A stretch of DNA of 64,000 nucleotides, taken from IMG/VR virus record IMGVR_UViG_3300043100_000006, positions 38,180 through 102,179 of that record, one strand, 5' to 3'. The position numbers were made by a program, and so were the translations under genes. Below the pieces are notes generated by a model, which was not told the DNA's origin, did not search any database, and saw nothing but the letters and a program-made list of their open reading frames with translations. This DNA comes from a virus. This document shows, piece after piece, positions 34,573-58,451 of the stretch (the stretch's first letter is position 1; each line of letters opens with the position of its first letter).

Positions 34573-34602
34573 ACATTACTAGTGAATCCGGCAGTCTGTC
34601 AA
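34573..34602 (-). promoter_or_regulatory. Reverse promoter with GATTCACTAGTA operator
   Basis: Read on the reverse strand: TTGACA (34602-34597), 18 nt, TAATGT (34578-34573). The operator-like GATTCACTAGTAA spans 34588-34576. The start codon follows 7 nt later. The same sequence marks six forward promoters in the window. Confidence 0.7.
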
Positions 34603-34614
34603 GCCCCGAATTCC

Positions 34615-34627
34615 TCCACCGGGTGGA
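34615..34627. repeat. Dispersed palindrome copy 5 (long arms)
   Basis: Exact core plus outer arms CGAATTC / GGATTCG pairing over seven positions (one G-T) after a single mismatch. It lies between divergent transcription units. Confidence 0.9.
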
Positions 34628-34749
34628 AGGATTCGGACGGGCAAGAAAAAGCATTGCATCCAAAGGGCGATGGGATAGAATGGGGATGCCTCCCCAGTCC
34701 TGCCGCACGGCACGGTTCGGCACGGTTCCGTCTTTCGTAAATTTTACTG

Positions 34750-34778
34750 TTGCTGTGTTGAAAATCTCAAGTTATAGT
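34750..34778 (+). promoter_or_regulatory. Promoter of the lysis cassette (predicted)
   Basis: TTGCTG, 17 nt, TATAGT, followed by SD TTGGAG and GTG 34795. It lacks the GATTCACTAGTA sequence, so it may be a different temporal class. Confidence 0.5.
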
Positions 34779-34794
34779 AAAAACTTGGAGAACC

Positions 34795-35133
34795 GTGATT
34801 GAACAACCTCTGGCACTGGCGGTTGATATCGGCGGCGATCTACTTTCCCAGGTTCGGGGAGCAGCCATTCAACTTATCGTACTGGCTGTGGTGGGGATAT
34901 TTAGCACTGTTAGTGCCGTCTTTTGCTGGCTTGTGCGGCGTGATCTCAGTCGTGCGGCTCAGGAAGAAGCAAAGCGCGGCCTTGCACACGCGGCACTCGC
35001 AGAGCGATTCGAGGATCATGTCAGGCGATCTGGAAATGAAACAAAAGATATTGAGTACCGTTTGGGCATTCTGGCAACGCAGTGTCAGCGCGTTATTCCA
35101 GAGGTCACCATCCCAGAGTGGCCAAGCCGTTAA
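34795..35133 (+). CDS. Membrane-anchored small protein of the lysis region
   Basis: 112 aa. One strong transmembrane segment (AIQLIVLAVVGIFSTVSAVFCWLV, about residues 24-48) with a soluble helical C-terminus. GTG start with SD TTGGAG behind a predicted promoter. Likely a holin- or spanin-associated protein; the exact role is not shown by sequence. Confidence 0.5.
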   Translation: MIEQPLALAVDIGGDLLSQVRGAAIQLIVLAVVGIFSTVSAVFCWLVRRDLSRAAQEEAKRGLAHAALAERFEDHVRRSGNETKDIEYRLGILATQCQRVIPEVTIPEWPSR

Positions 35134-35164
35134 GCCGTGGAGTTGGTGGAGGGAGCGGCGGAAT

Positions 35165-35602
35165 ATGCGGGAGCAATTAAAACTCCACAAACAATTCCTT
35201 CGAGACAAGGAGGAATTGGAGCGCCATATCAACAAGAAAGGCATAGCCCTGATCCGGTCTTTATTCCTTGCCCTGGCTTGCACGATGGCAGTGTTTGCGT
35301 TCTCCTACCAGCCGAAATATGAAGTCGTGACCGAGCACAACGTCGCAATCCTAGAACAGTTGAACGATGGAGATTTCGCTTACAAAAGCGACGAAAAGCC
35401 GGAGGGTGACATCTACCGACCGTGCGAGATTGATAGGAAGCACGGTATTGACGTAACAGGAATGCTGCGGCAGGCAATCGGATACGTGGCCGACAAAGCT
35501 ACTTGGCAGGAGCGCGGGACATGCAAGAGTATTCTCAGGCCGGAGTGGCAATTCTGGTTCCGGGATGCGAATAACAGTTTCACTTATGTGAGGGTAAAAT
35601 AA
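35165..35602 (+). CDS. Membrane protein with coiled N-terminus, spanin-like
   Basis: 145 aa. A charged helical N-terminus (KLHKQFLRDKEELERH), one transmembrane helix (IRSLFLALACTMAVFAF, about residues 30-46), and a large periplasmic-side domain. The frame is open further upstream but that part is a shadow of the preceding gene. ATG 35165 chosen. Its stop overlaps the next ATG (TAATG). Confidence 0.5.
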   Translation: MREQLKLHKQFLRDKEELERHINKKGIALIRSLFLALACTMAVFAFSYQPKYEVVTEHNVAILEQLNDGDFAYKSDEKPEGDIYRPCEIDRKHGIDVTGMLRQAIGYVADKATWQERGTCKSILRPEWQFWFRDANNSFTYVRVK

Positions 35603-35778
35603 TGGCTGGACCACCGAACAAATGGGTTAAGCAGCAAATTTCAGCAATATCCGATCCCAGCGCACCGACCAGCGATTGGGTACTCACTCAGTTGACCGGC
35701 AACCTACCTATCAACGCTGCCCTTTCTTCGGTGTGCAGCGACGGCACATTCGCTTTCGTCGGGGTCTATAGCACCTAA
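35602..35778 (+). CDS. Small hypothetical protein
   Basis: 58 aa, start overlapping the preceding TAA by one base. No transmembrane segment and no recognised domain. Confidence 0.4.
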   Translation: MAGPPNKWVKQQISAISDPSAPTSDWVLTQLTGNLPINAALSSVCSDGTFAFVGVYST

Positions 35779-35827
35779 AGTCAGCGCACGGCAAGGCACG
35801 GCATGATCAGCCCTCGGAGGGTAGGCT

Positions 35828-36259
35828 ATGTCGCCCCTTGAGCTTCAGATTGTCACCATTGTATTTGGAGCCATGCTGACTGCGATCCTTGCGATCTGCG
35901 GCTATGTGCTCGTGACCATTACCAAGCATGGCGAACGCATAGGTATAGTGGAAACTCAGGTCAGTCCGCTGTGGGCGCGCGTGCAGGCGCAAATCTCTGC
36001 CGATCTCCATCATCCGGACGACAGGCACTCCGAAATGGATCGGCTTTTGGAAAAACTGGACCACCTGCAAATTACGCTTGCAGAGCGCGCAGTCTTGAGG
36101 AATCTGCTCAGGGAACGAATGCATGATCCAAGCGTTAGTCTCACGGAGCAGAAATCGGCAGCAATGATGATTACCGTAATGGAACGAGTATTGATCGAAG
36201 CACACGACGCGGAAGTTGGAGCTAGCGCCGATGATGCGCCCGATACCGAACAAGGCTGA
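35828..36259 (+). CDS. Membrane-anchored coiled-coil protein of the lysis cassette
   Basis: 143 aa with SD GGAGGGTAGG. One N-terminal transmembrane helix (about residues 7-31), then long amphipathic helices with many Glu/Leu. This layout fits an inner-membrane spanin or similar lysis accessory. It overlaps the next small gene by 29 nt. Confidence 0.5.
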   Translation: MSPLELQIVTIVFGAMLTAILAICGYVLVTITKHGERIGIVETQVSPLWARVQAQISADLHHPDDRHSEMDRLLEKLDHLQITLAERAVLRNLLRERMHDPSVSLTEQKSAAMMITVMERVLIEAHDAEVGASADDAPDTEQG

Positions 36260-36395
36260 AATCGAATCCAAAATTGAGCAGTTAGAGCAACTACTGGAGT
36301 TTAATCCCACAGGGCTGCCGGCCGCGGCGATTGCGACCGAACTCATGCGACTGGAGAAACAGTTGAAAGAACTGGAGAAAGAGGAAAGTGAATGA
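36231..36395 (+). CDS. Small coiled-coil protein
   Basis: 54 aa, ATG 36231 inside the end of the preceding gene; the TGA overlaps the endolysin ATG. Two Glu/Leu/Lys heptad helices are separated by an FNPTGLP turn. Possibly a spanin partner or an endolysin regulator; no family recognised. Confidence 0.5.
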   Translation: MMRPIPNKAEIESKIEQLEQLLEFNPTGLPAAAIATELMRLEKQLKELEKEESE

Positions 36396-36829
36396 ACTAC
36401 GACGGCGACGACTTGGAATCGATGCGGCTGTGTATCTGGCGCGAGGCCAGGGGTGAGAAGGAAGAGGGTATGCAGGCGGTCGCCAGTGTCATTGTAAACC
36501 GCGCCAGCCAATGGTTTCCAACGGACCAGGCCCCGCTGCATCGCGTCATCTTCCAAAAGAACCAATTTTCGTCGATGAGCATTCCTTCCGATCCAGAGTT
36601 CCATTTGCAGCCAGCGCCGGACGATCCGCAGTACGCGTTCGCTCTTTCGATCTGTGAACCCACGATTAACGGAACGAACCCCGACCCGACCCACGGAGCC
36701 CTCTATTACGCCTATCTGAGCGAGGTCACGTCTGGATGGTTCTCTCGCAACATCTCAGGGCCGGATGGCAAGGGAACGCCAGCGCATCCACTGTTGGCAG
36801 TAATCGGCAAACAAAACTTCTACCGATAG
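36392..36829 (+). CDS. Endolysin, SleB/Hydrolase_2-type cell wall hydrolase
   Basis: 145 aa. 'IWREARGEKEEGMQAVASVI' followed by 'VNRA' is the signature of the cell-wall hydrolase SleB/CwlJ family, with the conserved Glu in REARGE. It lacks a signal peptide, so release probably needs the adjacent holin candidates. It overlaps the upstream gene by 4 nt. It cleaves peptidoglycan at the end of infection (family knowledge). Confidence 0.75.
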   Translation: MNYDGDDLESMRLCIWREARGEKEEGMQAVASVIVNRASQWFPTDQAPLHRVIFQKNQFSSMSIPSDPEFHLQPAPDDPQYAFALSICEPTINGTNPDPTHGALYYAYLSEVTSGWFSRNISGPDGKGTPAHPLLAVIGKQNFYR

Positions 36830-36837
36830 GGGGACCG

Positions 36838-37317
36838 ATGCAATTTGAAAGGCTCGACCTGTACGTCGGCGCGGCAGTGCTGATTGCTGTGCTTCTGATC
36901 GCGCTGGCATGGAAGATCGTTAACCAATCCGCATGGAGCCTGCCAAGCGTCCAGGACATTCAAGAACTTGCCACGATGTGCAACACGAAGGGCGGCATCG
37001 TTTTGCTTCTGGTTACAATGTGGGCGTTCACTTTAACGATCATCTTAATATTCAGCATCTGGGTGATCATCAAAGGGATTGATCCGCAGAACGCAATCGT
37101 GGTTCTCGTGTTGGGGATGATGACCAGCGGCGCATTCGGAACGATCAACGGCGCCCTTTTCCGCACAATGACAGGGGAAGATCCGAAGGCACCGGCTGGC
37201 GTCTCCACGGAAACGACTTCGACAAAGAGCACGGCGACCACGGAGGTAGCGGCACCCACGGTCCAGCCAGCGGCTCCTGCCGCTTCGCAGACTGGCACAG
37301 CCAAGTCTTTCCTCTGA
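36838..37317 (+). CDS. Holin-like membrane protein
   Basis: 159 aa, start ATG 36838 after a G-rich SD (GGGGGACC). Three hydrophobic segments (about 10-27, 54-80, 88-108) are followed by a Thr/Ala/Pro-rich soluble tail. Located directly after the endolysin. The tail composition suggests an exposed flexible domain. Confidence 0.55.
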   Translation: MQFERLDLYVGAAVLIAVLLIALAWKIVNQSAWSLPSVQDIQELATMCNTKGGIVLLLVTMWAFTLTIILIFSIWVIIKGIDPQNAIVVLVLGMMTSGAFGTINGALFRTMTGEDPKAPAGVSTETTSTKSTATTEVAAPTVQPAAPAASQTGTAKSFL

Positions 37318-37374
37318 GCACAATTGAGCATCTAAGATGTGTTCGGTCAGACACAATGAATCTAGGAGGCTTAT

Positions 37375-37581
37375 ATGCCAATGCTCTATCTGCTCGGTAT
37401 TCTGGTTTGTGCGATTGCGGTTGGATGCTTTGCGGTGTGGGCTATCCGCAAGTTTGTTCCCGCTGAAATGCAGAAGTGGGTATTCCTTCTGGTGGGACTG
37501 GTCGCGCTTGTTTTCTTCTGCTACTTCGTGATGACCCTGGTGGGTAGCGGGGGTTCGTTCGCGCCTCTTAGGATTCGCTAA
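37375..37581 (+). CDS. Two-helix holin candidate
   Basis: 68 aa with SD AGGAGG. Two transmembrane helices (about 3-24 and 35-56) separated by a short charged loop, the class II holin layout. It is the last gene before the lysis terminator. Confidence 0.55.
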   Translation: MPMLYLLGILVCAIAVGCFAVWAIRKFVPAEMQKWVFLLVGLVALVFFCYFVMTLVGSGGSFAPLRIR

Positions 37582-37601
37582 TCAGGTTTTCTCTCTCCAT
37601 C

Positions 37602-37631
37602 CGGCCTGCCCTTCGCGGCGGGCCGCTTTTT
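37602..37631 (+). terminator. Rho-independent terminator of the lysis cassette
   Basis: CGGCCTGCC / GGCGGGCCG, nine pairs with one G-U, loop CTTCGC, then CTTTTT. It ends the late transcript right before an early promoter. Confidence 0.9.
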
Positions 37632-37634
37632 CTC

Positions 37635-37663
37635 TTGCGCCAAAGTTCCTTTGCGCGTATCTT
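37635..37663 (+). promoter_or_regulatory. Early promoter candidate, leaderless
   Basis: TTGCGC, 17 nt, TATCTT, then ATG 37671 after 7 nt. It sits on the tail of the terminator. No GATTCACTAGTA sequence. Confidence 0.4.
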
Positions 37664-37670
37664 TTCCCGC

Positions 37671-37877
37671 ATGGCATTCGGAACGAAACAGGTCGCTGGC
37701 AACTTCGAGGTCGTAGACTATGAGGATGATTGTGTGACGGTGCGCCATCTCGCCACGGAGGTAGAATACACGTTCACGATTGCGGACGGAGCCGCGGACA
37801 AGTTTCTCGAAGTGCTACCGCTCGGGACTTTCTTCGCGGGAGCGCTGGAGATTGAGGATGACGTTCATTATTGCTGA
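37671..37877 (+). CDS. Small hypothetical protein
   Basis: 68 aa, probably leaderless, beta-rich ('VEYTFTIADGAADKFLEV'). It overlaps the next gene by 20 nt. First gene of the early block. Confidence 0.5.
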   Translation: MAFGTKQVAGNFEVVDYEDDCVTVRHLATEVEYTFTIADGAADKFLEVLPLGTFFAGALEIEDDVHYC

Positions 37878-38088
37878 TAGGCAGGAGCGGCGCGTGTTGC
37901 CGAACGGCGTTCTGTTGATCACGGACTTTGAGCGTGGCATTGCGCTGATCTGCGATCCTGAGGCTGGCAGGATTTGCCGGTGTTGCGGGAAGGTAAGTTC
38001 GTTCTGGGATGTGACCATAGGGTATGAGGTGGTGGGGACGGAGCAGATGCAGCAACCGCCGTTCAAGATGAGGCTGGGGTTTAACTAA
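37858..38088 (+). CDS. Small hypothetical protein with CxCC cluster
   Basis: 76 aa. A CRCCGK cluster plus an earlier Cys may bind metal. Start ATG 37858 is inside the preceding gene behind GAGG. No family recognised. Confidence 0.45.
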   Translation: MTFIIADRQERRVLPNGVLLITDFERGIALICDPEAGRICRCCGKVSSFWDVTIGYEVVGTEQMQQPPFKMRLGFN

Positions 38089-38089
38089 G

Positions 38090-38596
38090 ATGAACACGAC
38101 TGCGGAAGTAATCGAGATCGTCGGATTGGATCGCAGCGCGAAATTACCAGTGCGCATTGAGCAGTTCAGCAACTTCCGCATGGAAGTCTGGGAAAAGTTG
38201 CAAACCAAAGCGCCTTGCCCAGACAAAGCGCGGGCATACTGCTGTTACATGAACACGGTAATTTTCTATGTTGGCCCAAGATATATCGTTCGACCCTGGC
38301 ACCATCTCTGGCGGTGCAACGGCAGACTGCTGGCAGAGAAACCCGGCAGTAGTTTCGAAGAGTGGGGGCGTACGGAGTACGAACTATATTGGGACCGCGT
38401 GTTTCGCTGGCGTGGCAATGAATGGGAAGTCGGGGGCGGCTCGGTTCTTTGGCTCGGCAAAGGGCTTGGTTGGTGGATGAAGCACGGAGCGAGAAAGAGA
38501 GTTAGCGATGAAGGACAAAACCGTAACAGTCACTTGCAAAGAGGCGCGGGAGATGCTGGCGAAGTACGAGCAAATCATCATCCACTGGCGTCCTGA
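38090..38596 (+). CDS. Hypothetical protein, tryptophan-rich
   Basis: 168 aa with many aromatic residues between 75 and 130. The last 30 residues overlap the next gene in another frame and look low-quality, so the functional protein may be effectively shorter. No domain recognised. Confidence 0.5.
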   Translation: MNTTAEVIEIVGLDRSAKLPVRIEQFSNFRMEVWEKLQTKAPCPDKARAYCCYMNTVIFYVGPRYIVRPWHHLWRCNGRLLAEKPGSSFEEWGRTEYELYWDRVFRWRGNEWEVGGGSVLWLGKGLGWWMKHGARKRVSDEGQNRNSHLQRGAGDAGEVRANHHPLAS

Positions 38597-38657
38597 TGGC
38601 CTTATCAATCACCGTGAAGCAGACTACGACCCGGCAGTGGTGACGGTATTCGGCTGA
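38508..38657 (+). CDS. Small hypothetical protein
   Basis: 49 aa overlapping the previous ORF by 89 nt. A coherent sequence ('TVTCKEAREMLAKYEQIIIH', then 'INHREADYDPAVVTV') argues that this frame is real. No clear SD. Confidence 0.4.
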   Translation: MKDKTVTVTCKEAREMLAKYEQIIIHWRPDGLINHREADYDPAVVTVFG

Positions 38658-38662
38658 AAGCT

Positions 38663-38675
38663 TCCACCGGGTGGA
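38663..38675. repeat. Dispersed palindrome copy 6
   Basis: Exact core with a T/A and C/G extension outside it. It lies 30 nt upstream of an operator-bearing promoter, so both dispersed signals are adjacent here. Confidence 0.9.
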
Positions 38676-38704
38676 AGGATTTGCCGCCTACAGCAAAACC
38701 CGCC

Positions 38705-38733
38705 TTGACACGGATTCACTAGTACAGTTAAAT
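38705..38733 (+). promoter_or_regulatory. Promoter with GATTCACTAGTA operator
   Basis: TTGACA, 17 nt, TTAAAT; the operator covers 38713-38724 within the spacer. ATG 38742 lies 8 nt after the -10 box, so the mRNA should be leaderless or nearly so. Confidence 0.75.
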
Positions 38734-38741
38734 TCAGAATC

Positions 38742-38948
38742 ATGCCCGTACTGGAAATGCTCGAAGAGATTGACGGAGTCGGTGTCGCAGACATCGGTTG
38801 GTGCCCTGCTTCGGAAGAAGGAGAGCACGAGCGGCTTGTGCGTGATGCGCGGGCAGAGCGGGAGCGGATGGGATTCGACGTTGCGGAGTCTTCGGTGGTT
38901 TGCGGCCGGTGCCACATGCTGATTCCGCTGGAGTGCCGGGTCGGATAG
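38742..38948 (+). CDS. Small zinc-ribbon-like protein
   Basis: 68 aa, leaderless. An acidic helical N-terminus and a C-terminal CGRC plus further Cys. Possibly a small regulator of the early region; no family recognised. Confidence 0.5.
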   Translation: MPVLEMLEEIDGVGVADIGWCPASEEGEHERLVRDARAERERMGFDVAESSVVCGRCHMLIPLECRVG

Positions 38949-39009
38949 AGGTCGAAATGCACGGTCAAGAAACCGTTTCAAAAGCAAGCCAGATGGCTCT
39001 CTGGTGAAG

Positions 39010-39381
39010 ATGGTTGTAACGAACAGCCCACTCTCGCGCAACGCGGAACGCAGTCGTCTTGCTGGAAGCCTACCCATTGACTTCCGGTGTCCTGAGTGCA
39101 GCGCCGATCTAGGCACCCTCTGCTATCATGCGGATCGGCAGCATCGCGTCAAAGCTTTCCATGCTCGGCGGAAACTCATGGCTAACGCTGCAGCGCGGGC
39201 GATGGGGCTTGTCTATCCTCGGCGATTGAGGACCAAGCCGAGTCTTGGTACTGGTCAATTGCAGATGGGGAAAATGCTAGTTACCGACTTCGCGCAGCGA
39301 GCAATAGAAGAGCATGATCCACAAAAGGCGGTTCGCATTGTGAAACTGTGGAGGGGAGACAGGAAAGTTGATAAACGATGA
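39010..39381 (+). CDS. Zinc-finger protein, phage type
   Basis: 123 aa. 'FRCPECSADLGTLCYHA' followed by H and R/H residues ('HRVKAFHARR') resembles the short phage zinc-binding motif that begins CPxC and ends HxxRR. A basic helical region follows. A GTG at 39004 is an alternative start. Its TGA overlaps a possible 35-aa ORF. Confidence 0.5.
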   Translation: MVVTNSPLSRNAERSRLAGSLPIDFRCPECSADLGTLCYHADRQHRVKAFHARRKLMANAAARAMGLVYPRRLRTKPSLGTGQLQMGKMLVTDFAQRAIEEHDPQKAVRIVKLWRGDRKVDKR

Positions 39382-39485
39382 CCTCGACTATGTGTACCTG
39401 GCACCAGCGGCACACTGGCGGGGTGGAAGACTTTTTATCGAAGCCCAGCCATCGGCTGTCGCAGGTCCACAGCTTGCCGCGTTGA
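39378..39485 (+). CDS. Possible 35-aa peptide
   Basis: ATGA overlap with the preceding gene is its only support; no SD and no recognised motif. It may be untranslated. Confidence 0.2.
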   Translation: MTSTMCTWHQRHTGGVEDFLSKPSHRLSQVHSLPR

Positions 39486-39502
39486 GTTCGCGCCAGCACC
39501 AC

Positions 39503-39613: not shown

Positions 39614-39644
39614 CATAGAAGGGCTAACATTCTCGGAGGCTGAC

Positions 39645-40564: not shown

Positions 40565-40581
40565 AGCGAATGCCGAATCTT

Positions 40582-41215: not shown

Positions 41216-42894
41216 AAGCGAAAGTGCAAGACCCACACGGCGTAGTGTCGTTCTGGGAAGATGGAAACTGTTGGCTGATTAAAACGAAACCACACATCGC
41301 GCTCCGGATGAAGCGCATCTTCCCAAAGATCAATCCCGGAGAGCAGGGAATCCTGCGCCTTGCGGACACACCGGAAAATTGCCGCGACCTCGAATGGTTT
41401 CTCGAACGCTATCCGCATGACTGCCCTTACTTCCGAATGCTGCGAGAAAGGGCGAAGTCGCACCGAGAAGCAGAGGCAGTCATTACTAGCCTGATGAAAA
41501 CCGTTCCAACGAACGGGCGCGTAAAAGAATTCAAGATGGCGAAGCCGCCGCGCGACTATCAAGTGCAAGTGGCGGATTTACTCAAGGCATCTGGCGGCCT
41601 ACTCTGCGCGGACGACGTCGGCCTGGGGAAGACCGTGAGTTGCATCACAGCCATCGTCGATCCGAAACTCCAACCCGCGCTCGTGGTTTGCTTGGCGCAT
41701 CTCCCGTTGCAGTGGCGAAACTTCATCCGCGAGTTCGCGCCGCATCTCCGCGTGCACATTCTTAGCAAAGGCACGCCATACAATTTCAAAGACAAGTGGG
41801 GTGATCTGCCGGACGTGATCATTAGCAGTTATGGGAAGATGCGAGATTGGGCAGAGACGCTGGCCGCCATAGTAAAGAGCGTTACCTGGGACGAGGGGCA
41901 AGAATTGCGGCATGAAGGGACGCAACGCTATGCGGCGGCGCGCGTCATCGCCAACGCGGTTCCCTACCGATTGTGTTTAACAGCTACACCCATTTACAAC
42001 TTCGGAATCGAGATGTACAACGTGATGCGGTGCGTGAAACCGGAAGCTCTCGGAAGCCGCGATGAGTTTGTGACGGAGTGGTGCGCTGGCGAAGCGATTC
42101 GCGACCCACGCGCGTTCGGAGAGTACATGCGAGCTTCCGGCCTCATGCTTCGCCGCACGAGGGTCGATGTCAAACGAGAACTCCCGCCGTGCCAGTCCAT
42201 TGTGCATTCCATTGAATGCGATGAAAAGGCGCTAGAGGCGGGCATCTCGGGCTGTGATGAACTTGCAAACATCATCGTAAGTCGAAGCGAGACTTTCCGC
42301 GGGCAGAAGATGCAAGCGGCGGCCGAGTTCGATATGCGAATGCGGCAGGCCACGGGGATTGCGAAGGCCGGTTACGTTGCAGAGTTTGTGAGGATGCTGG
42401 TCGAGGGTGGGCAGAAAGTTGCGCTGTATGGTTGGCACAGGGCCGTATATTCGATATGGCTGAAGCGGCTCGAAGATTTGGGCGCAACGATGTACACGGG
42501 CAGCGAGAGTCCAGCGCAAAAGAACTTTGCGAAGGAACGGTTCGTGAGCGGCGATTCGAAAGTGATCATGATCAGCCTGCGCAGCGGCGCCGGCCTTGAT
42601 GGATTGCAGAAAGTGTGTAGCACTGTCGTGTACGGAGAGTTGGATTGGAGCCCCGGATGTATGCAGCAGTGTACCGGGCGAGTCTTTCGCGACGGACAGG
42701 AGAATCCCGTCATGGCCTACTATCTGGTTTGCGATTACGGCTCGGACCCAATCATGTCGGACACTCTGGGAATCAAGCGGCAGCAGAGCGAAGGGATTCT
42801 GAATCCGGCAGCGGACATCATCGAAGGACTTCAAATAGATCCTGAGCATGTGCGGAAACTAGCGGAGGCGTATCTTCGGCGAAAACATGCTTGA
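41209..42894 (+). CDS. SNF2/DEAD-like helicase
   Basis: 561 aa from ATG 41209. Superfamily 2 motifs in order: Walker A as DDVGLGKT (K141), a DEGQ box in place of DEAH, 'LTATPI' (motif III), and C-terminal motifs 'VISLRSGAGLDGLQ' and 'CTGRVFRDGQ'. This matches the SNF2-like helicases of many phages. It probably works with the preceding nuclease. The DEGQ variation keeps the catalytic DE. Confidence 0.85.
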   Translation: MLKAKVQDPHGVVSFWEDGNCWLIKTKPHIALRMKRIFPKINPGEQGILRLADTPENCRDLEWFLERYPHDCPYFRMLRERAKSHREAEAVITSLMKTVPTNGRVKEFKMAKPPRDYQVQVADLLKASGGLLCADDVGLGKTVSCITAIVDPKLQPALVVCLAHLPLQWRNFIREFAPHLRVHILSKGTPYNFKDKWGDLPDVIISSYGKMRDWAETLAAIVKSVTWDEGQELRHEGTQRYAAARVIANAVPYRLCLTATPIYNFGIEMYNVMRCVKPEALGSRDEFVTEWCAGEAIRDPRAFGEYMRASGLMLRRTRVDVKRELPPCQSIVHSIECDEKALEAGISGCDELANIIVSRSETFRGQKMQAAAEFDMRMRQATGIAKAGYVAEFVRMLVEGGQKVALYGWHRAVYSIWLKRLEDLGATMYTGSESPAQKNFAKERFVSGDSKVIMISLRSGAGLDGLQKVCSTVVYGELDWSPGCMQQCTGRVFRDGQENPVMAYYLVCDYGSDPIMSDTLGIKRQQSEGILNPAADIIEGLQIDPEHVRKLAEAYLRRKHA

Positions 42895-42920
42895 CGATTT
42901 CACTAGCAATCTTCTAAACT
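42891..42920 (+). promoter_or_regulatory. Promoter with degenerate operator
   Basis: TTGACG, 18 nt, TAAACT; TTTCACTAGCA (42898-42908) matches the operator except at its ends. ATG 42928 is 7 nt after the -10 box: leaderless. Confidence 0.65.
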
Positions 42921-42927: not shown

Positions 42928-43254
42928 ATGAGAACGCCACTACCGAGCGGCCCGAATCGCTTCACGGCGAAGCGCGGCGGGAAGCAGGCCACAAACGGCA
43001 AGTCGATTCCTGTTACGTGCTATCCACGCAAGCGAACAAAAGCGCTGCTGGTGGAGATTGCGCAGCAAGTTGAGCAGGGTGTGAGTGCATTCCTGATTAT
43101 CTCTGGACTGGAGAAGGTTGCACGCATTAAGGCGCAGGGCAACAAAGTTGAGGTATTGACGGAGAGCGAGTTAGAGTCCGCGGTGAGATCGTTGATTCCG
43201 GAAGAAGAGTACGCCGAGCTTTTGCGGAAGCGCGGCGGCAAGGGAAAGAAATGA
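42928..43254 (+). CDS. Hypothetical basic protein
   Basis: 108 aa, leaderless. A basic, Gly-rich N-terminus and C-terminus flank a helical core with a beta-like 'KSIPVTCYPRKRTKALLVEI', which could be a ribbon-helix-helix-like DNA-binding unit. Not recognised with certainty. Confidence 0.5.
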   Translation: MRTPLPSGPNRFTAKRGGKQATNGKSIPVTCYPRKRTKALLVEIAQQVEQGVSAFLIISGLEKVARIKAQGNKVEVLTESELESAVRSLIPEEEYAELLRKRGGKGKK

Positions 43255-43885: not shown

Positions 43886-44014
43886 ATGGAAATCCCCGGC
43901 ATCATGTGGGAATGGGATCACGCTCGATTCCTCGGCCACGAGGAATACGAATACTGGATGATGAACCCGCTGCCCTTTGGATGGTCGATTGTTTCCGCGC
44001 CAGTTTCCGCTTGA
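43886..44014 (+). CDS. Small aromatic protein
   Basis: 42 aa, SD AAAGGAACC. Very rich in Trp, Met and acidic residues in its first 30 positions, like short phage proteins annotated near DNA-metabolism genes. Its end overlaps the -35 box of the next promoter. Confidence 0.45.
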   Translation: MEIPGIMWEWDHARFLGHEEYEYWMMNPLPFGWSIVSAPVSA

Positions 44015-44039
44015 CTGATTCACTGGTATTCTGTATTCT
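44011..44039 (+). promoter_or_regulatory. Promoter with operator variant GATTCACTGGTA
   Basis: TTGACT, 17 nt, TATTCT; operator variant at 44017-44028. ATG 44046 is 6 nt after the -10 box: leaderless. Confidence 0.7.
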
Positions 44040-44045: not shown

Positions 44046-44654
44046 ATGTCGCACGGTCCCATCCTGCTTGATGTCGATTCCCATCAATACACGAGAGACG
44101 GCATCCCCTACCGCAGCGTGACCCAAGTGATCGCAGACGCGGGGTGGTGCGACTTCTCGTTTGTGGAAGAGGAGTTGCGCGTGCACAGTATGAAGCGCGG
44201 AAAGAGCGTGCACTGGATGACGTGCCTTGAGGACCAGGGAGGTTTGGATTATCGGCGGGTGCCAGCGGCCTTGCGAGGATACAGACGGGCATGGAACGCA
44301 TGGAAACGGGCAAGCGGATTCATGGCCGAATTGATCGAGTGGCGATTTATTTCGGCATACGGCTATGGCGGAACGCTTGACAGGTACGGGATGCTGCCAG
44401 CGACGGAGATGTGTCCGGTCGCGACTCATGCCGTCATCGATCTGAAGACCGGCGTTGTCCCTGACTGGGCCAGATTCCAACTCGCTGCCTATGCCGTAGG
44501 ATGGCAACCAAAACTTGCCCTGGCGCGCCGCATCCGCAGGATCGGAGTATCGGTCCTCGCCAACGGAAAATATTCGACACGAGAGTTTCCGATCGCCTCG
44601 TTTGATTCCGATTTCTCGCTGTTTGCGGAAGCGGCGCGACAGGGCAACGAGTAG
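44046..44654 (+). CDS. PD-(D/E)XK exonuclease (Cas4/RecB-like)
   Basis: 202 aa. Catalytic pattern: D112 in 'GGTLDRYG', D132-x-K134 in 'AVIDLKTG', and Q145 in 'ARFQLAAYA', the RecB-family layout (no Fe-S cysteine cluster seen). Probably a recombination or DNA-processing exonuclease. Leaderless behind an operator-bearing promoter. Confidence 0.7.
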   Translation: MSHGPILLDVDSHQYTRDGIPYRSVTQVIADAGWCDFSFVEEELRVHSMKRGKSVHWMTCLEDQGGLDYRRVPAALRGYRRAWNAWKRASGFMAELIEWRFISAYGYGGTLDRYGMLPATEMCPVATHAVIDLKTGVVPDWARFQLAAYAVGWQPKLALARRIRRIGVSVLANGKYSTREFPIASFDSDFSLFAEAARQGNE

Positions 44655-44725
44655 GGGAAGTTTGGCAAGTGCAGGTGTGGTTAACGCAGCAGGCGGAAGG
44701 CACAGTCTTGACAAGTTCTGGCAAG

Positions 44726-45031
44726 ATGATGCAGTATACTGGCATGGAACGGTCAGAGATTTCGCGGCACGAAGTCCAGATTTACCAAGTTCTTAAGAAC
44801 AATCCTACCCAATGGTTCACCAACAAGACTCTGTCCGATGCTAGCAAGGTCACAGGGCGTACCGTTAGGCTGCATACCAACCGCTTTGTTAAGCTCGGCA
44901 TAGTTGATTTAGCCGAAGTCTTCCCGGCCCATCGCTATAGATTCGCAGAGAAAGCATCACGAAGAAATGCTGCCTACGTGCAACGATTGGAAAACGCGGT
45001 CGAAGTATTCACGGAGGCAGTTCGATGTTGA
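44726..45031 (+). CDS. Winged-helix-like DNA-binding protein
   Basis: 101 aa from ATG 44726 (alternatives: GTG 44669, ATG 44729, ATG 44744; none has a decisive SD). 'EISRHEVQIYQVLKNNPTQW', then 'SDASKVTGRTVRLHTNRFVK' reads as a winged helix-turn-helix. A TTGACA (44708) and TATACT (44735) are 21 nt apart, too far for a standard promoter. Its end overlaps the RNase H start. Candidate early regulator. Confidence 0.5.
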   Translation: MMQYTGMERSEISRHEVQIYQVLKNNPTQWFTNKTLSDASKVTGRTVRLHTNRFVKLGIVDLAEVFPAHRYRFAEKASRRNAAYVQRLENAVEVFTEAVRC

Positions 45032-45078
45032 TCGGCTATTTTGACGGTTGTTGGGTTTGTATTACACTAGCGCCATGA
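45025..45078 (+). pseudogene. 5' fragment of a split RNase H gene
   Basis: An ideal SD (GGAGG, 7 nt) precedes ATG 45025. The frame encodes MLIGYFDGCW, the first strand of RNase HI with the catalytic Asp of the YFDG motif. It then runs into a TGA that overlaps the LAGLIDADG gene start. The rest of RNase H lies downstream at 45611-46069. Confidence 0.65.
45041..45068 (+). promoter_or_regulatory. Promoter of the LAGLIDADG gene
   Basis: TTGACG, 16 nt, TACACT, ATG 45075 after 6 nt (leaderless). 'ATTACACTAG' resembles the left part of the operator. The -35 lies within the YFDG codons of RNase H. Confidence 0.5.
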
Positions 45079-47019: not shown

Positions 47020-47048
47020 TTGACACCCGCGCGATTCACTAGTATTCT
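47020..47048 (+). promoter_or_regulatory. Promoter with GATTCACTAGTA operator
   Basis: TTGACA, 17 nt, TATTCT; the operator (47033-47044) overlaps the -10 box. The gene start at 47070 has an AGGAG SD, so this one is leadered. Confidence 0.8.
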
Positions 47049-47069: not shown

Positions 47070-48614
47070 ATGATTCGAGGTATTACGCATACCGAAGACG
47101 GTCAGCAGATTCAGCGGTTGGCCGTTTCAACGAAGGTCGCCATAGGATTGCCGCCTAACCCGGCAGAAGGCAAGAAGGCGCATCCATCCAAGCTCGACCA
47201 TTTCATATTTTTACGAAAGTCTCCCGCCCAGCAAAACGCTTGGGAACTCGACGATAAATTGATGAAGGCCTACGGGACGAAGTGCAAAGAGTTCGAGATC
47301 GTTCTTTTGGATGACGAGATTGAGAACGTGTTCCCGACTAAACTTGCGTGGTTCACTCAATCTGAGTGTAAATGCTTCGGGGATGGAGAATCGGCCACGC
47401 GACGCACGGCAGAACATCCAGAGGGCCAGCCGTGGTCTCCATGCGGGAAAGCATGTCCAGACCTTGAAAACGGTTCCTGTAAACCGGCCGCAGACTTGCG
47501 TTTCATGCTAGCAGCCTTCCCGCAACTCGGCGCGGTCGCGCGGATTCACACATCGAGTTATCGCAGCATCATGCAAATTTCTTCTAGCCTGCAGCAAATC
47601 CAAACTATCACCGGGGGGCGGCTGGCCGGCATCCGAGCGAAGTTGGTTGTCAGGCCGGAAAAAACGTCGTACATGGGCGCGGACCAGAAACGTCATTCGA
47701 CCACCGTGTTCGCGCTGAATCTGGAAATCCAGGCGGCAGGAATCAAGGAACTGGTCACGCACATGACAGACCATGCGCGGCTGTTCGAGCACACTCGAAA
47801 ACTGTTGGGCACCGGGCGGATCGAAGTGATCGAAGATGATTCGGCACGCGCTGGAGAAATCACGCCAGAGTTTTACCCAGAAGTTTCGCCGCCGAAGTTC
47901 CCGACCGCGGAAGAGGCAGGGCAAGCCGATCCTGAAATCATCCCACCGATAAAGCAGGCGAACATGGACGTGATGTGCCAGGAGTGCCGACAGGTGAACG
48001 GGCACAAGCCGGATTGCTTCCACGCAACGCAGTCGGTAACTGGCAAAAGCGATCAATGCCAAGACTGCAAAGCGTTCGGGGGACACTTGCCATCCTGCAA
48101 ACACCACGCGGCATGGAAAGCCTCTCTCGGCCAACCGGCAACGGCTAAGCCCTCAGGACAGACTGCCATCGCGCCAGCGGAAGCCGCACAGCCACAAACG
48201 ACGGCAGCGGCCACTGAGACTGCCAAGCCAGCGGACCAGGCTCCTGCGGGGCTGGAAACGATGACGCTGGTGGTCATGGGAGTCGCCCCCAAAGAGAAAG
48301 CGGCCATGAAAGGAAGGAATCCAACCGGCGAGAAACAGCAATACCGAATCCTGACCGTGGTCAGCAAGGGCGATCTCCAGTGGGCGCTTTACGCTTGGGA
48401 CCCAAAACACTTCGAGTTCTTGGATCCGATCCCTTCTGGAACTAAGTGCGAATTCCAGACGAAGAAAACGAAGTCAGGGTACTACCAGTTGGAGCACATA
48501 TTGGACACGGGCGGATTGAAATTCAAGGACGACAAGCCGATGGTTGCGGTTGAGGGCGAGGTCCTGGTGGATGAGGGCGAAGACTGGTCGCTGCTGGACG
48601 AACAGCCGAAGTAG
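47070..48614 (+). CDS. Large DNA-metabolism protein with tandem zinc knuckles
   Basis: 514 aa. The N-terminal ~270 residues resemble phage proteins of the Gp3/recombination-directionality-like group ('DHFIFLRKS', 'YGTKCKEFEIVLLDDEIENV', 'SPCGKACP'). Two tandem zinc knuckles follow at about 308-350 (CQECRQVNGHKPDCFH and CQDCKAFGGHLPSCKHH). After an Ala/Thr linker comes a C-terminal OB-like beta domain (about 400-500, 'QYRILTVVSKGDLQWALYAW'). A single-stranded DNA or recombination role is plausible; the family call is tentative. Confidence 0.45.
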   Translation: MIRGITHTEDGQQIQRLAVSTKVAIGLPPNPAEGKKAHPSKLDHFIFLRKSPAQQNAWELDDKLMKAYGTKCKEFEIVLLDDEIENVFPTKLAWFTQSECKCFGDGESATRRTAEHPEGQPWSPCGKACPDLENGSCKPAADLRFMLAAFPQLGAVARIHTSSYRSIMQISSSLQQIQTITGGRLAGIRAKLVVRPEKTSYMGADQKRHSTTVFALNLEIQAAGIKELVTHMTDHARLFEHTRKLLGTGRIEVIEDDSARAGEITPEFYPEVSPPKFPTAEEAGQADPEIIPPIKQANMDVMCQECRQVNGHKPDCFHATQSVTGKSDQCQDCKAFGGHLPSCKHHAAWKASLGQPATAKPSGQTAIAPAEAAQPQTTAAATETAKPADQAPAGLETMTLVVMGVAPKEKAAMKGRNPTGEKQQYRILTVVSKGDLQWALYAWDPKHFEFLDPIPSGTKCEFQTKKTKSGYYQLEHILDTGGLKFKDDKPMVAVEGEVLVDEGEDWSLLDEQPK

Positions 48615-53919: not shown

Positions 53920-53933
53920 TAGACTTCCATCCG

Positions 53934-53946
53934 TCCACCGGGTGGA
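53934..53946. repeat. Dispersed palindrome copy 10
   Basis: Exact core with right flank GAGATTC, 20 nt upstream of ATG 53967, whose SD (AGAGG) lies between them. Confidence 0.9.
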
Positions 53947-53966
53947 GAGATTCAGAGAGGCTGAAA

Positions 53967-54329
53967 ATGCGAAACGTCGCGCTGTTAGTTTGTATGATCG
54001 TCGCACCACACTCACAGGGCGTTACGATATGCCATCTCCAACCCTCTAAACCTTCATGTACATTCAATCTGCCATCTCGCACCGTGAGCGTGGCTGTGGA
54101 GGAGATCGCAGAGAACAAAAGTGACTGTTGCGTGGTTATCATGGGATGCATTGGTGCCAGATGCCACGAACTTGATCGAAACGGTCGTTTCCCAGCGATT
54201 CAATCCGTGTCAACGCCGATATTCGGCGGATATGATCGCATTGTGCTGCGATTTACTGGCGGCGGTTCCATTGTGGCGGCCATCGTTATCACAAGACTTG
54301 GCAAGGAGGACGAGATTGATGGAGAGTGA
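53967..54329 (+). CDS. Hypothetical protein, possibly exported
   Basis: 120 aa. Weakly hydrophobic N-terminus and six Cys; a second frame overlaps it, so assignment is moderate. Ends in GKEDEIDGE; overlaps the next ATG by 11 nt. Confidence 0.4.
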   Translation: MRNVALLVCMIVAPHSQGVTICHLQPSKPSCTFNLPSRTVSVAVEEIAENKSDCCVVIMGCIGARCHELDRNGRFPAIQSVSTPIFGGYDRIVLRFTGGGSIVAAIVITRLGKEDEIDGE

Positions 54330-54618
54330 TCTGGGAGTCCGACGCTCTACCGGAGAGCCGCTTATCCGTGTCCGGAAACGGTTCTTTGGTCCAAAGGTCG
54401 GGCAGTATACGTTCGACGGCAGCACTTGGACATTCAGCCGTAGAGATCAAGGCCGAGTCATGGTCACGTTTGTAGCGAATGGCATAGTTTTCAACAGCAT
54501 CGAAGTAGCTCTGCAAAAGACGTGGCTACGAAACCGCAATATTTTCGAGTACAGTAAACTGCTGGAGAAAGAGAGGTACGTCATCAATGTTCCGCACGGA
54601 AGCAGAAGAGACGCATGA
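54319..54618 (+). CDS. Hypothetical protein
   Basis: 99 aa from ATG 54319 (SD AAGGAGG). Basic, beta-rich ('VGQYTFDGSTWTFSRRDQGR'). No family recognised. Overlaps the following gene by 32 nt. Confidence 0.5.
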   Translation: MESDLGVRRSTGEPLIRVRKRFFGPKVGQYTFDGSTWTFSRRDQGRVMVTFVANGIVFNSIEVALQKTWLRNRNIFEYSKLLEKERYVINVPHGSRRDA

Positions 54619-54886
54619 ACTCTGCCGCGAAGTAATCGCGGACCTGATGCAGCGGCCAGCGGAGCGGTTTTACGCGGGCGAACAGATAGCGCTGAATGCG
54701 GCATCGCTCGGACTTTATCGACAGGACCAGGACTTGCTCGACTGGCTGTTCGATCTGCGCCGGATGACGGCGCGAGCACTAGAGGGGAATATTGACATAT
54801 ACGCCATCGCAGGCAAGCCAGAGCGAATCGAACACCGATTGACGCGGCGTGAGATCATGGTGCCGTACATGCCGAGGATTCGATGA
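54587..54886 (+). CDS. Hypothetical helical protein
   Basis: 99 aa, helical and rich in Leu/Arg/Glu. ATG 54587 lies within the preceding gene; the stop overlaps the next ATG. Confidence 0.45.
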   Translation: MFRTEAEETHELCREVIADLMQRPAERFYAGEQIALNAASLGLYRQDQDLLDWLFDLRRMTARALEGNIDIYAIAGKPERIEHRLTRREIMVPYMPRIR

Positions 54887-55278
54887 AGGCGCGGGACATC
54901 ATAGCGAACTGGCCACGCGGTCGCAGTTCAAGCCGACCGATTCGAATTCCCGCATGGTTCCGCTTCGCATGGTACAAGTCAAGGATGGAGGCCGCAGGGC
55001 ATCCAATCTTTGGGCCGACCGATGCAGCATTTGAGGAGTTCACGCGGACGAACATGATTCTGTTTTTTGAAGCGGAGGCTGAGGCGAAGTACCGCGCAGA
55101 GCAGGACCGCATGACGGATGCCTATAGACTGGAGCAGTTTGGAGAAAGGGAATTCGTTCGCATCTTCGGACGCGCGGACATCACCCGCGAGGAGATCGAG
55201 AAACTGTTTCCAGGCAAATGCGAATTTCCATTCGACAAACTCCCGCGCAAGATTGCAACAGCCGAGGCCCAACAATGA
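54883..55278 (+). CDS. Hypothetical protein
   Basis: 131 aa. Basic N-terminus, helical acidic core ('EAEAEAKYRAEQDR'). ATGA overlaps on both sides show tight operon coupling. Confidence 0.5.
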   Translation: MKARDIIANWPRGRSSSRPIRIPAWFRFAWYKSRMEAAGHPIFGPTDAAFEEFTRTNMILFFEAEAEAKYRAEQDRMTDAYRLEQFGEREFVRIFGRADITREEIEKLFPGKCEFPFDKLPRKIATAEAQQ

Positions 55279-56180
55279 GCAAAAAGAAATTCCAGGAAAT
55301 CATCCCGCCCGACGACTTAATCAACCACGCAGAGAACCTTGACCGCGAAGCTCGCCGACTCTGGACCGAGATGGACATGCACATCACGGCGGCGGAAATC
55401 ATCAGCATCCCATTCGGGAAAGTCTGCCAAGAAATGAAAGACCAGGCATTGCACAAGATGGTGCGTAAGGCCCACTCGCGGAAGGGCTACCCGTCTTTCC
55501 CGGAGTGGGTAGAGTCGGTGACGAACGGAAAACTGTCGAGCAGTTCACTTTACATGGCGATGGGGCTCCATCGGTTGACAGAAGGGCCGAACGCGATTCC
55601 TGCCGAAGAAATTGTGCAGATGCCGAAAGAGAATGCCTATCGACTTTCGACGCAACTCACGCCGGAGCAGCGGACGCCGGAGATGATTGAGAAGGCGAAG
55701 AAAACCACGAAAGAGGAATTCCCGAAGCGCATCCAGGAGAAATTGAACGAAGGATTGCCGGCGGATAAGCAGGTTGTCATCCGCGTGGAGTTCTTTCGGC
55801 AGTGGGCGCCGGACGTGGTCAACAAGCTGGAAGCGACGATTGAGCGGTTCACGCATTTGCCGATCGTGCGTGATCACAACCGGGAACTGACTTTGCAGGA
55901 GAAGGCGGTGTTGGCGATTTGCTTTGCCGCGGAGAGTGATTGCGATTTATTGTTGAAGCAAGCGGAGGCGGAACACAGTGCGGAGATCGAACTACCTGAA
56001 GCGAAAGAAGCCGTTGCCGAGACAAACGAAGCCGTTGAAGCGGACGGCGATCAAACGGAAAGCGACATGGAAGACCTTGAAGCGGCAAACGGGGATACGT
56101 TCGCGGAAGGAGACATCGTCGAGCAAGAGGAGTTCCACGAAACGCGGCGGGTGGTCCCGCTCGAAGAAGTCGAGAGTTAA
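55275..56180 (+). CDS. Acidic-tailed helical protein, possibly DNA-binding
   Basis: 301 aa. The N-terminal part contains a helical region with 'KLSSSSLYMAMGLHRLTEGP', which could be a helix-turn-helix. The C-terminal 60 residues are extremely acidic. That acidic stretch is overprinted in the +1 frame by the basic N-terminus of the next gene over 203 nt. Confidence 0.5.
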   Translation: MSKKKFQEIIPPDDLINHAENLDREARRLWTEMDMHITAAEIISIPFGKVCQEMKDQALHKMVRKAHSRKGYPSFPEWVESVTNGKLSSSSLYMAMGLHRLTEGPNAIPAEEIVQMPKENAYRLSTQLTPEQRTPEMIEKAKKTTKEEFPKRIQEKLNEGLPADKQVVIRVEFFRQWAPDVVNKLEATIERFTHLPIVRDHNRELTLQEKAVLAICFAAESDCDLLLKQAEAEHSAEIELPEAKEAVAETNEAVEADGDQTESDMEDLEAANGDTFAEGDIVEQEEFHETRRVVPLEEVES

Positions 56181-56565
56181 GCCGGACATCGAGATAATCG
56201 ACGATCCGTATTCGCCTTCGGCAGACCGCAAGCGGGTGCTCTACCACTCGAAAGAAGCGATAGCATCGTTGCACTTGGAGTTGTGGACCTTGGCAGGCGG
56301 GATGTGCGAGGCGCATGTAGACATCGCAAGGCTGGCGGCAATGGGCAAGATGGTAAGCGAACCGCACCCGGCTCATCGGATTCGACTGGAAGATATGCAA
56401 CCGCATCATCGGCACGGGCGGGGCGCTGGCAAAAGAGAGGACCGACCTTTTATCACGCTGGACGATGGGCGACTGCTACGGATGGCGCTGTGTGTGTGTC
56501 AGCGCGGGCACGACCTGATTCACGAGTTCGCATTGCTGAGGGATTTTCTGACAGAGGTGAGATGA
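55978..56565 (+). CDS. HNH-like nuclease with Lys/Arg-rich N-terminus
   Basis: 195 aa, GTG 55978 with GGAGG 9 nt upstream. N-terminal 'RKKPLPRQTKPLKRTAIKRK' is the style of many phage HNH proteins. 'HLELWTLAGGMCEAHV', then 'PHPAHRIRLEDMQPHHRHG' and a later CQRGHDLIHE hold His/Cys spaced like a degenerate HNH/zinc site. The first 68 codons overlap the acidic tail of the previous gene. Confidence 0.55.
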   Translation: MRRSNYLKRKKPLPRQTKPLKRTAIKRKATWKTLKRQTGIRSRKETSSSKRSSTKRGGWSRSKKSRVKPDIEIIDDPYSPSADRKRVLYHSKEAIASLHLELWTLAGGMCEAHVDIARLAAMGKMVSEPHPAHRIRLEDMQPHHRHGRGAGKREDRPFITLDDGRLLRMALCVCQRGHDLIHEFALLRDFLTEVR

Positions 56566-56744
56566 CCAAGATTCTGTGGGCAATCGAGACGCATCGTGCC
56601 GGCGTGTGGACCCTGCTCCCTAACACCATCATGGTTGATCGTCGTAATGCCGAATTCGAGATGGAGTGCCTGCGAAAAGAAGAAACCAAGAAAGCCAATC
56701 CAGAAAGATACCGACTAGTTCGTTATCAGCGAATCGAAGGTTAG
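56562..56744 (+). CDS. Small hypothetical protein
   Basis: 60 aa, ATGA overlap. Charged helical; no motif recognised. Confidence 0.45.
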   Translation: MTKILWAIETHRAGVWTLLPNTIMVDRRNAEFEMECLRKEETKKANPERYRLVRYQRIEG

Positions 56745-56752
56745 GAGTCTAA

Positions 56753-56992
56753 ATGAAAACGTACAGCAATGCCGAATTAATGATGGGCCGAACACCGCAG
56801 AGCAGGGGGCGCGACATGAGCACCTACCGTCAGTCACGCCGCCGCACTCATCTCGCGGAAGCGAGACAAGAAATCACAAAACGCTTTGCAGGCACCGGGC
56901 GGGGCGGGAACTTGCAATGGCCGGAAGAGTTATGTCCGCGACGCCGGCGGCGTTCCATTATCCGCGCAAAGGCGAAACGCCATGTGGACTAA
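56753..56992 (+). CDS. Small basic protein
   Basis: 79 aa, SD TTAGGAG. Very Arg-rich C-terminus (RRRRRSIIRAKAKRH). It overlaps the next gene by 11 nt. Possibly nucleic-acid-binding. Confidence 0.4.
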   Translation: MKTYSNAELMMGRTPQSRGRDMSTYRQSRRRTHLAEARQEITKRFAGTGRGGNLQWPEELCPRRRRRSIIRAKAKRHVD

Positions 56993-57626
56993 GGAAGCAC
57001 CGAAGGAGCCGGGGTTCTACTGGTTTAGATATCCGCAGATGACCCCGATTTACAGGGACGACAACCCAACCATCGTGCGCGTGCTGAAACCGCTGTATGA
57101 TGGCGGTCCAGTGCAGTGCGCGTTTCCGGGGAACGAAGAATGTCCACATTCGATAAACATTCCCGGCGATCCAGAGTGGTGGAGCGAGCGCATTATCTCG
57201 CCATCGGAGCACGTGTTATTCGATGGATTCTTCGCACCGAAAGACTTCCCTGATCAAATGGCGCGCATCTTTGAGACGCGATATACGTGTCTGGTAAAGC
57301 AAAAGTCGGTGCAGTCTGTTCACGAAGGCGACGTTGTAGTCCTGCCGGAATATGGGCGGCTTTGGGTGCGCAAGATTGGTCCACCGAATACGGACGGATC
57401 CGTTCAACTCGAATGTTCAAACCGCCCACCAGAATGGTTAGCATTTGCGCCAGTCGGGAGCGAGCCAATCTCTCCACCGGGTGGACAAATGATCTGCTCG
57501 TCGGCAGACATGCCTTCGGAGACTGGCACACTGGTGATGCCTGGGCGCGCCGAATCGCAGCGAGCAGCAGGACTGCGGACCATCGCGAAGCCGGGAGAGC
57601 CGGGGTACAAGGAGCCAGCGCAATGA
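56982..57626 (+). CDS. Hypothetical protein carrying a palindrome copy
   Basis: 214 aa from ATG 56982. 'EAPKEPGFYWFRYPQM' at the N-terminus resembles small phage proteins of unknown function. The dispersed palindrome at 57473-57485 is translated as SPPGGQ. Overlaps the ASCH gene by 4 nt. Confidence 0.5.
   Translation: MWTKEAPKEPGFYWFRYPQMTPIYRDDNPTIVRVLKPLYDGGPVQCAFPGNEECPHSINIPGDPEWWSERIISPSEHVLFDGFFAPKDFPDQMARIFETRYTCLVKQKSVQSVHEGDVVVLPEYGRLWVRKIGPPNTDGSVQLECSNRPPEWLAFAPVGSEPISPPGGQMICSSADMPSETGTLVMPGRAESQRAAGLRTIAKPGEPGYKEPAQ
57473..57485. repeat. Dispersed palindrome copy 11
   Basis: Exact core inside a coding region; flanks not conserved. Confidence 0.85.
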
Positions 57627-58084
57627 AAGCCTTGACTCTCTGGCAACCTTGGGCGAGTTTGGTAGCGGTAGGCCAGAAAGAAGTGGAGACTCGCTGTTGG
57701 CAAACAAAGTATCGCGGCGAACTGGCGATTCACTCAGCCGCAAATCTTCCCGCGAAGTGGCTCGGAGCTTCGCGACATCAGCCAGAGTTCCGCGACAAAA
57801 TAGCGGATATTTTCAACGCTCGGCGGGACCGTGACGAGCGAACAGGCTTCCACGTAGACGATGCGATTCGCAAACTTCCATTCGGGAAAGTGCTCTGCAT
57901 CGTTCGGCTCGTGGACATTCAAGAGACGGGCAGCATGGATTGCTGTGAACTGGCGGAGACGGAGCGACTATTCGGCAACTACGAACTCGGCAGATATGCT
58001 TGGTTCCTTGAGATGGTGGAGAAATTTGAGGAGCCGATACCGGCGAAAGGAAACAGGATGCTATGGAATTGGAATCAGGACTAA
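57623..58084 (+). CDS. ASCH-domain protein 2
   Basis: 153 aa. 'LTLWQPWASLVAVGQKEVET' then 'RCWQTKYRGELAIHSA' is a clear ASCH signature, closer to the family consensus than the first ASCH protein. Overlaps the next gene by 22 nt. Role in phage biology unknown; RNA or modified-nucleotide binding is expected from the fold. Confidence 0.75.
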   Translation: MKALTLWQPWASLVAVGQKEVETRCWQTKYRGELAIHSAANLPAKWLGASRHQPEFRDKIADIFNARRDRDERTGFHVDDAIRKLPFGKVLCIVRLVDIQETGSMDCCELAETERLFGNYELGRYAWFLEMVEKFEEPIPAKGNRMLWNWNQD

Positions 58085-58407
58085 CTACAGGAATGACGGC
58101 ATCGAATTCCGCTCAAGCCCAGAAGCCCATATCGCTCTCTGATCTCCAAGACTCTCTCGCGGCGATTAAAGCAATTGAGCCATCCGATAGCGTACTCTGG
58201 GTTAATCAGGCGACAATGGAAATATTAAAAGCACAACTGCCACGGGCGACGGGGCCGCGATCACGCCACTTAATGGACCTCGAAATCTACATTGATGAGA
58301 GCGTGCCCTATCGAACAGTGGAAAGCGGTGTATGGGCGAGGATGAGCGATTTCAAAGAAGGGGAAAGCGGTCGCATGAAATCCGTGCGCCATCGATACAT
58401 GATTTGA
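58063..58407 (+). CDS. Hypothetical protein
   Basis: 114 aa, start ATG 58063 within the ASCH gene. No motif recognised. It is followed by the ParB promoter. Confidence 0.45.
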   Translation: MELESGLTTGMTASNSAQAQKPISLSDLQDSLAAIKAIEPSDSVLWVNQATMEILKAQLPRATGPRSRHLMDLEIYIDESVPYRTVESGVWARMSDFKEGESGRMKSVRHRYMI

Positions 58408-58408
58408 C

Positions 58409-58451
58409 TTGACACCCTTTTCCTTTTGCTGATAAAAATTACTAGTGAATC
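58409..58451 (+). promoter_or_regulatory. Promoter of the ParB gene with inverted operator
   Basis: TTGACA (58409-58414), a 16-18 nt spacer, GATAAAAAT, then the operator in reverse orientation (58439-58451, TTACTAGTGAATC) over the expected transcription start. The ATG at 58486 has SD GGAAGGAG. Confidence 0.7.

Follow-up and report, generated by a model that had tools for sequence, protein, structure and literature searches.

A dispersed 12-bp element, putatively the operator of a single repressor, overlaps promoters of non-structural genes in a large uncultivated phage

The C1 operators of bacteriophage P1 are 22 dispersed, asymmetric sites of 17 bp with the consensus ATTGCTCTAATAAATTT (PMC8546580), and genomes of cluster A mycobacteriophages each contain many asymmetric 13-mer operators and stoperators recognized by one protein, the L5-type repressor; stoperators are also found away from promoters, in short intergenic spaces, and have been proposed to stop elongation (PMC9283540). 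In SPbeta, the SPBRE element is conserved in about ten promoter regions and is bound by MrpR, a protein with a tyrosine-recombinase fold; 24 years separate the description of the element from that of its repressor, whose fold was unexpected (PMC10516654). The KorA operator of RK2 is 12 bp long and overlaps the -10 box, and the KorB operators are dispersed 13-bp palindromes (PMC2680271, PMC11790492) of sequence TTTAGC[c/g]GCTAAA, that is, with a 6+1+6 form and a free C/G centre (PMC2680271).

The phage analyzed here resembles P1 in having one asymmetric putative operator dispersed at promoters over a genome of around 100 kb, the cluster A phages in having many asymmetric sites per genome with, as predicted here, one recognizing protein, and SPbeta in the dispersion of a conserved element over promoter regions. 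Additionally, the combination of a 12-bp element, dispersed 13-bp palindromes and a ParB/KorB-family protein recalls the KorA/KorB system. The window, a stretch of 64,000 nt, corresponds to bases 38180–102179 of a virus record of 102,179 bp (IMGVR_UViG_3300043100_000006; G000 hereafter), which was scanned in full. The complete record contains 11 sites matching GATTCACTAGTA (seven exact, three with one mismatch and one weak variant), six of them inside the window and five outside, at record positions 1560, 7797, 11286, 13923 (inverted) and 22004. In 60 dinucleotide shuffles the mean number of exact matches was 0 and that of matches with up to one mismatch was 0.17, vs. the seven and ten observed; when up to three mismatches were allowed, the window alone gave 33 matches vs. 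26 expected, which is not above chance, so that the signal resides in the close matches only.

The full-genome matrix scan proposed in the initial annotation of this DNA separated the sites well: with a 12-position matrix, promoter sites scored at least 13.5 and every other match at most 13.0, a separation that is partly by construction because the matrix was derived from the same sites, and no site above the threshold was found away from promoters in the record. The initial annotation had also named an equal frequency of the motif away from promoters as the result that would count against a common operator. What we found is that all 11 sites are non-coding, end 12–102 nt before a start codon and lie in the non-coding DNA within 130 nt upstream of starts, which amounts to 6.6% of the record (binomial p = 1e-13, to be taken as indicative because the gene model was homemade, some genes near the sites having been entered manually, and gene starts are approximate). 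Thus, the idea of one binding site common to dispersed promoters held, as did six of the seven sites originally listed; the remaining one (45061–45070) has mismatches at 5 of 12 positions when aligned on CACTAG. The motif had been described as a near-palindrome around ACTAGT, and this hexamer is indeed palindromic, but it is the only symmetric part of an element whose flanks are not, and GATTCACTAGTA as a whole is asymmetric. In a matrix of all 21 sites from this phage and its sister (see below), T3, T4, C5, A6, C7, T8, G10 and A12 were invariant, and conservation outside the 12-mer was mainly that of the -10 box. Restriction avoidance at ACTAGT (SpeI) was considered and rejected, as no depletion was found.

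Every one of the 11 sites overlaps a predicted sigma70-like promoter, with a -35 box of the TTGAC- or TTGCA-type and a plausible -10 box. Among intergenic TTGAC/TTGCA promoter-like pairs, all those with a good -10 box carry the motif and the six lacking it have a poor -10 box; the scan missed the minus-strand promoter at 34577, whose gene (34137–34565) was absent from the gene list and whose boxes are visible in the sequence. The spacing between motif and promoter is partly regular: the distance to the -35 box in the record is 0, 2, 7, 8 or 10 nt, four of the 11 promoters have the arrangement TTGAC[A/C]-N7-GATTCACTAG-TATTCT, where the -10 box starts in the last two bases of the motif and the spacer is 17 bp, and at record position 1560 the TAGTAT within the motif is the likely -10 box. 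Two sites are inverted, in the same manner in the sister phage, one of them in the spacer (record 13923) and the other downstream of the -10 box (window 58440). Since the position relative to the -35 and -10 boxes is variable and both orientations occur, the element is best interpreted as an operator and not as a part of the promoter. In agreement with the initial annotation, an extended -10 box was therefore rejected, and likewise a MotA-like element, as neither position nor orientation relative to the -10 box is fixed and the two inverted sites are conserved. The leader behind the inverted operator (L008:13880–14079) shows 81% conservation relative to the sister phage; it includes a hairpin with a UUCG loop showing a compensatory pair change (GGTCC-TTCG-GGACC / GGCCC-TTCG-GGGCC).

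The genes found behind the sites encode a DUF932 protein, a radical-SAM protein, an exonuclease, a Gp3-like protein, ParB, a two-gene pilin-like operon and unknowns, and include all those assigned to the regulon at the outset (exonuclease, Gp3-like, ParB and pilin operon). The exact site at 34577–34588 (minus strand) falls within the spacer of a promoter on the same strand (-35 TTGACA, 34597–34602; possible -10 TAATGT, 34573–34578). The minus-strand operon that it precedes, 34004–34565, starts with a gene for a 142-aa membrane protein (34137–34565, with a weak match to DUF5317, below cut-off) and continues with one for a 52-aa Flp/Fap pilin-like protein (34004–34162, with a weak match below the Pfam cut-off), for which we did not find a counterpart in the sister phage. 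The other promoters of the window that bear a site are on the plus strand. An exact site at 38713–38724 (plus) is located between a -35 TTGACA (38705–38710) and a -10 TTAAAT (38728–38733), and is kept in the sister phage at 95558. The weak variant ATTTCACTAGCA at 42897–42908 (plus) abuts a -35 TTGACG (42891–42896; -10 TAAACT, 42915–42920), with CTTTCACTAGTA as its equivalent in the sister phage at 101355. Similarly, GATTCACTGGTA, with one mismatch, at 44017–44028 (plus) abuts a -35 TTGACT (44011–44016; -10 TATTCT, 44034–44039), is kept at 102392 and precedes the exonuclease-like gene (44046–44654, plus; PHROG exonuclease families), which is followed by a gene for a winged-helix-like protein of 120 aa (44669–45031, plus). 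The exact site at 47033–47044 (plus), kept at 2023, has a -35 TTGACA (47020–47025) and a -10 TATTCT (47043–47048) overlapping the end of the motif, and precedes the gene for the Gp3-like protein, similar to recombination directionality factors (47070–48614, plus; Pfam PF18897, E 6e-32). Lastly, the exact site at 58440–58451 (minus; record 96619) lies in inverted orientation immediately after the -10 box of the plus-strand ParB promoter (-35 TTGACA, 58409–58414; -10 TAAAAA, 58433–58438) and is kept inverted at 29985; the gene encodes a 561-aa ParB/KorB-family protein with a PRTRC-type extension (58486–60171, plus).

Conversely, the structural module, which is half of the genome, contains no site, and the largest gap, of 50.8 kb (record 22004 to 72756; chance about 0.01), holds the terminase, capsid and other structural genes. 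Gene content thus supports early/middle control of the genes bearing the putative operator.

The sister phage (G001; IMGVR_UViG_3300050821_002231, 102,896 bp) is largely collinear with the record and circularly permuted, and the terminases and capsid proteins are 92% identical. It has ten sites, nine of them at promoters orthologous to those of the record, where the 12-mer is 93.5% identical vs. 41% and 36% in the flanks, an estimate of conservation that rests on a single sister genome. Several of the genes behind these conserved promoters have been replaced, or are preceded by other genes, between both phages, indicating that the unit of promoter and operator outlives the genes it serves. The motif was not found in the records of the more distant relatives examined, and a fragment of 20.8 kb from a third relative, equivalent to around 19.5–42 kb of the record, lacks a close match. 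Other pattern matches in viral contigs were rejected as relatives because they look like chance in AT-rich DNA, and no relatives of the capsid were found in bacterial and archaeal genomes. The region at 12–30 kb of the sister phage (L040, L041) contains an insertion of around 15 kb with transposase-like genes, an HTH_3 protein and an operator promoter of its own (12484); in the window, an IS1595-type transposase gene (63106–63891, minus) is located at the end of the record.

Six-frame searches did not reveal any tyrosine integrase or serine recombinase in either phage, nor any HTH_3 protein in G000, consistent with the initial annotation, which had seen no CI-like repressor; the only HTH_3 protein is in the accessory island of the sister phage (G001 19187–20338). 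In Pfam scans covering most of the remaining non-structural genes, no recognized repressor was identified. A lambda-type CI/Cro switch was consequently rejected, given the lack of an HTH_3 repressor in G000 and of an integrase, and sites that are single and asymmetric. Likewise, a role in lysogeny lacks direct support because there is neither a recognized repressor nor an integrase. P1 encodes ParB, as does this phage; however, its operators differ from GATTCACTAGTA in sequence and length, and no C1-like protein was recognized here (no match to the C1/Coi family in general Pfam/PHROGs scans). Unlike in cluster A phages, every site is located at a promoter and inverted sites occur, and an L5-family repressor was not recognized, as judged from the lack of HTH_3 matches in G000. 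In contrast to MrpR of SPbeta, there is no match to Phage_integrase (PF00589) at E<=1 in either phage, a search that a strongly diverged fold could escape. Finally, the KorA operator is palindromic whereas GATTCACTAGTA is not, no KorA homologue was recognized, and only four of the 21 operators have a palindrome within 60 bp upstream. By analogy, this system most likely works like those of P1 C1, L5 gp71 and SPbeta MrpR but is not assigned to any of them, because the sequence differs, all sites are confined to promoters and a matching repressor was looked for without success.

We consider it likely, from the arrangement of the sites, that GATTCACTAGTA is a single-copy operator for one sequence-specific DNA-binding repressor, which would block RNA polymerase at the 11 dispersed promoters of early/middle genes, and one regulator probably switches all the genes bearing the operator together. 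The motif tolerates shift and inversion and yet always overlaps the polymerase footprint, pointing to an operator and, most simply, to that of a repressor. The sites would be inside or touching the footprint of RNA polymerase at sigma70-type promoters, from -35 to about +12, such that the bound repressor would block the polymerase, with early/middle, non-structural genes as the putative targets; the deviant operator preceding the 108-aa gene described below could in turn allow weak autoregulation by its product. Repression over activation, early timing and a phage-encoded protein are what we infer from sequence data. If the element is bound by a repressor, mutation of TTCACTAGTA should raise promoter activity when phage proteins are present.

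Some of the same observations could be accommodated otherwise. It is unlikely that the site is bound by a recruited host regulator, for instance a stress repressor or one of the SOS type, instead of a phage protein. Host repressors are known to control genes of other phages directly, and the window's phage has no recognizable CI-like regulator, but the strict pattern TTGAC-N7-9-GATTCACTAGTATTCT was absent from all 84,980 species genomes, a weak test because it demanded the exact full promoter and the host is not identified. As a special case of repression, the ParB/KorB-family protein might itself bind GATTCACTAGTA, as its own gene has the operator in both phages and the protein shows a ParB HTH plus a weak match to the KorB domain; we regard this as quite unlikely because the known ParB/KorB sites are palindromic and GATTCACTAGTA is not, and the 13-bp palindrome described below fits better.

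That the four promoters with TATTCT start their -10 box at the same position of the motif, with a 17-bp spacer, would agree with a target for an activator, or with a MotA-box-like element for a phage factor plus RNA polymerase, which would turn the genes on. We nevertheless find this very unlikely: the distance to the -35 box varies, both phages have two inverted sites, one of them downstream of the -10 box, and the promoters have retained -35 and -10 boxes of good quality and so do not look activator-dependent. The joint recurrence of the -35 sequence and the motif might also reflect chance or common ancestry, with a promoter cassette copied around the genome and no trans-acting factor; however, the sites have in common only the 12-mer and the promoter hexamers, and nine orthologous promoters retain the 12-mer with flanks that drifted apart, which makes this explanation practically negligible.

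A phage repressor, our preferred explanation, has consequences for the search of the protein, because an operator common to both phages requires that the shared regulator be conserved. Three conserved genes are directly behind an operator in both genomes: that for ParB, the gene at record 13997–14497, conserved between both phages over its first ~34 residues only, and a gene for a 108-aa protein with a net charge of +10 and no recognized domain (42928–43254, plus). The last one leads as candidate because it lies directly behind the weakest operator, which is the most deviant in each of the two genomes and carries an identical A-to-T change at position 2, fitting weak autoregulation; still, its designation as the regulator is a guess, and a doubtful one. 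Its relatives were not recognized beyond these two phages in the collections searched, AlphaFold models of the protein are of low confidence (pLDDT 52–54), and a ribbon-helix-helix fold, suspected by eye, was unsupported by Pfam, hhalign, pairwise ranks or a confident structure. This basic protein and ParB are the best candidates. Conversely, the winged-helix gene (44669–45031) is unlikely to encode the shared regulator, as it was not found in the sister phage, which has the same operator, and the LuxR/GerE-type HTH protein encoded within the structural gene region (18297–18572) was set aside because no counterpart was found there. The elements would thus constitute a genome-wide regulon with a single operator in a large uncultivated phage lacking both an integrase and a recognizable repressor; a new type of phage repressor, or an early-gene shut-off system, may await discovery, as SPBRE illustrates, and the motif could be used directly as bait to recover the protein.

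The same genome contains, besides its ParB/KorB-family protein, a second dispersed element, the 13-bp palindrome TCCACC[G/C]GGTGGA with AATC...GATT flanks, which has the same 6+1+6 form and free C/G centre as the KorB operator. There are about 19 copies in the record and 13 in the sister phage, mostly intergenic; those in the window, of 13 bp each, start at 4943, 10542, 21271, 33958, 34615, 38663, 40582, 43845, 48626, 53934 and 57473. The variable flanking positions did not covary beyond expectation, so that a palindrome at the DNA level is a better fit than an RNA hairpin. Across both phages, a palindrome is centred 29–50 bp upstream of four of the 21 operators, two in G000 (p = 0.036) and two in the sister phage, a proximity that is a lead and not a result. 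By analogy with KorA and KorB, a ParB clamp could load at the palindromes, slide and be trapped at promoters where a small protein occupies GATTCACTAGTA, thereby silencing early genes at a distance, although we deem such a network highly improbable.

Other parts of the genome encode DNA methyltransferases of the C5-cytosine and N4/N6 types (L008:12995–13873 and L009:883–1878) and, at L008:4645–5429, a phage acyl carrier protein and, after it, a JAB-domain protein with a relationship to the Cap3/Cap2-3 isopeptidases.
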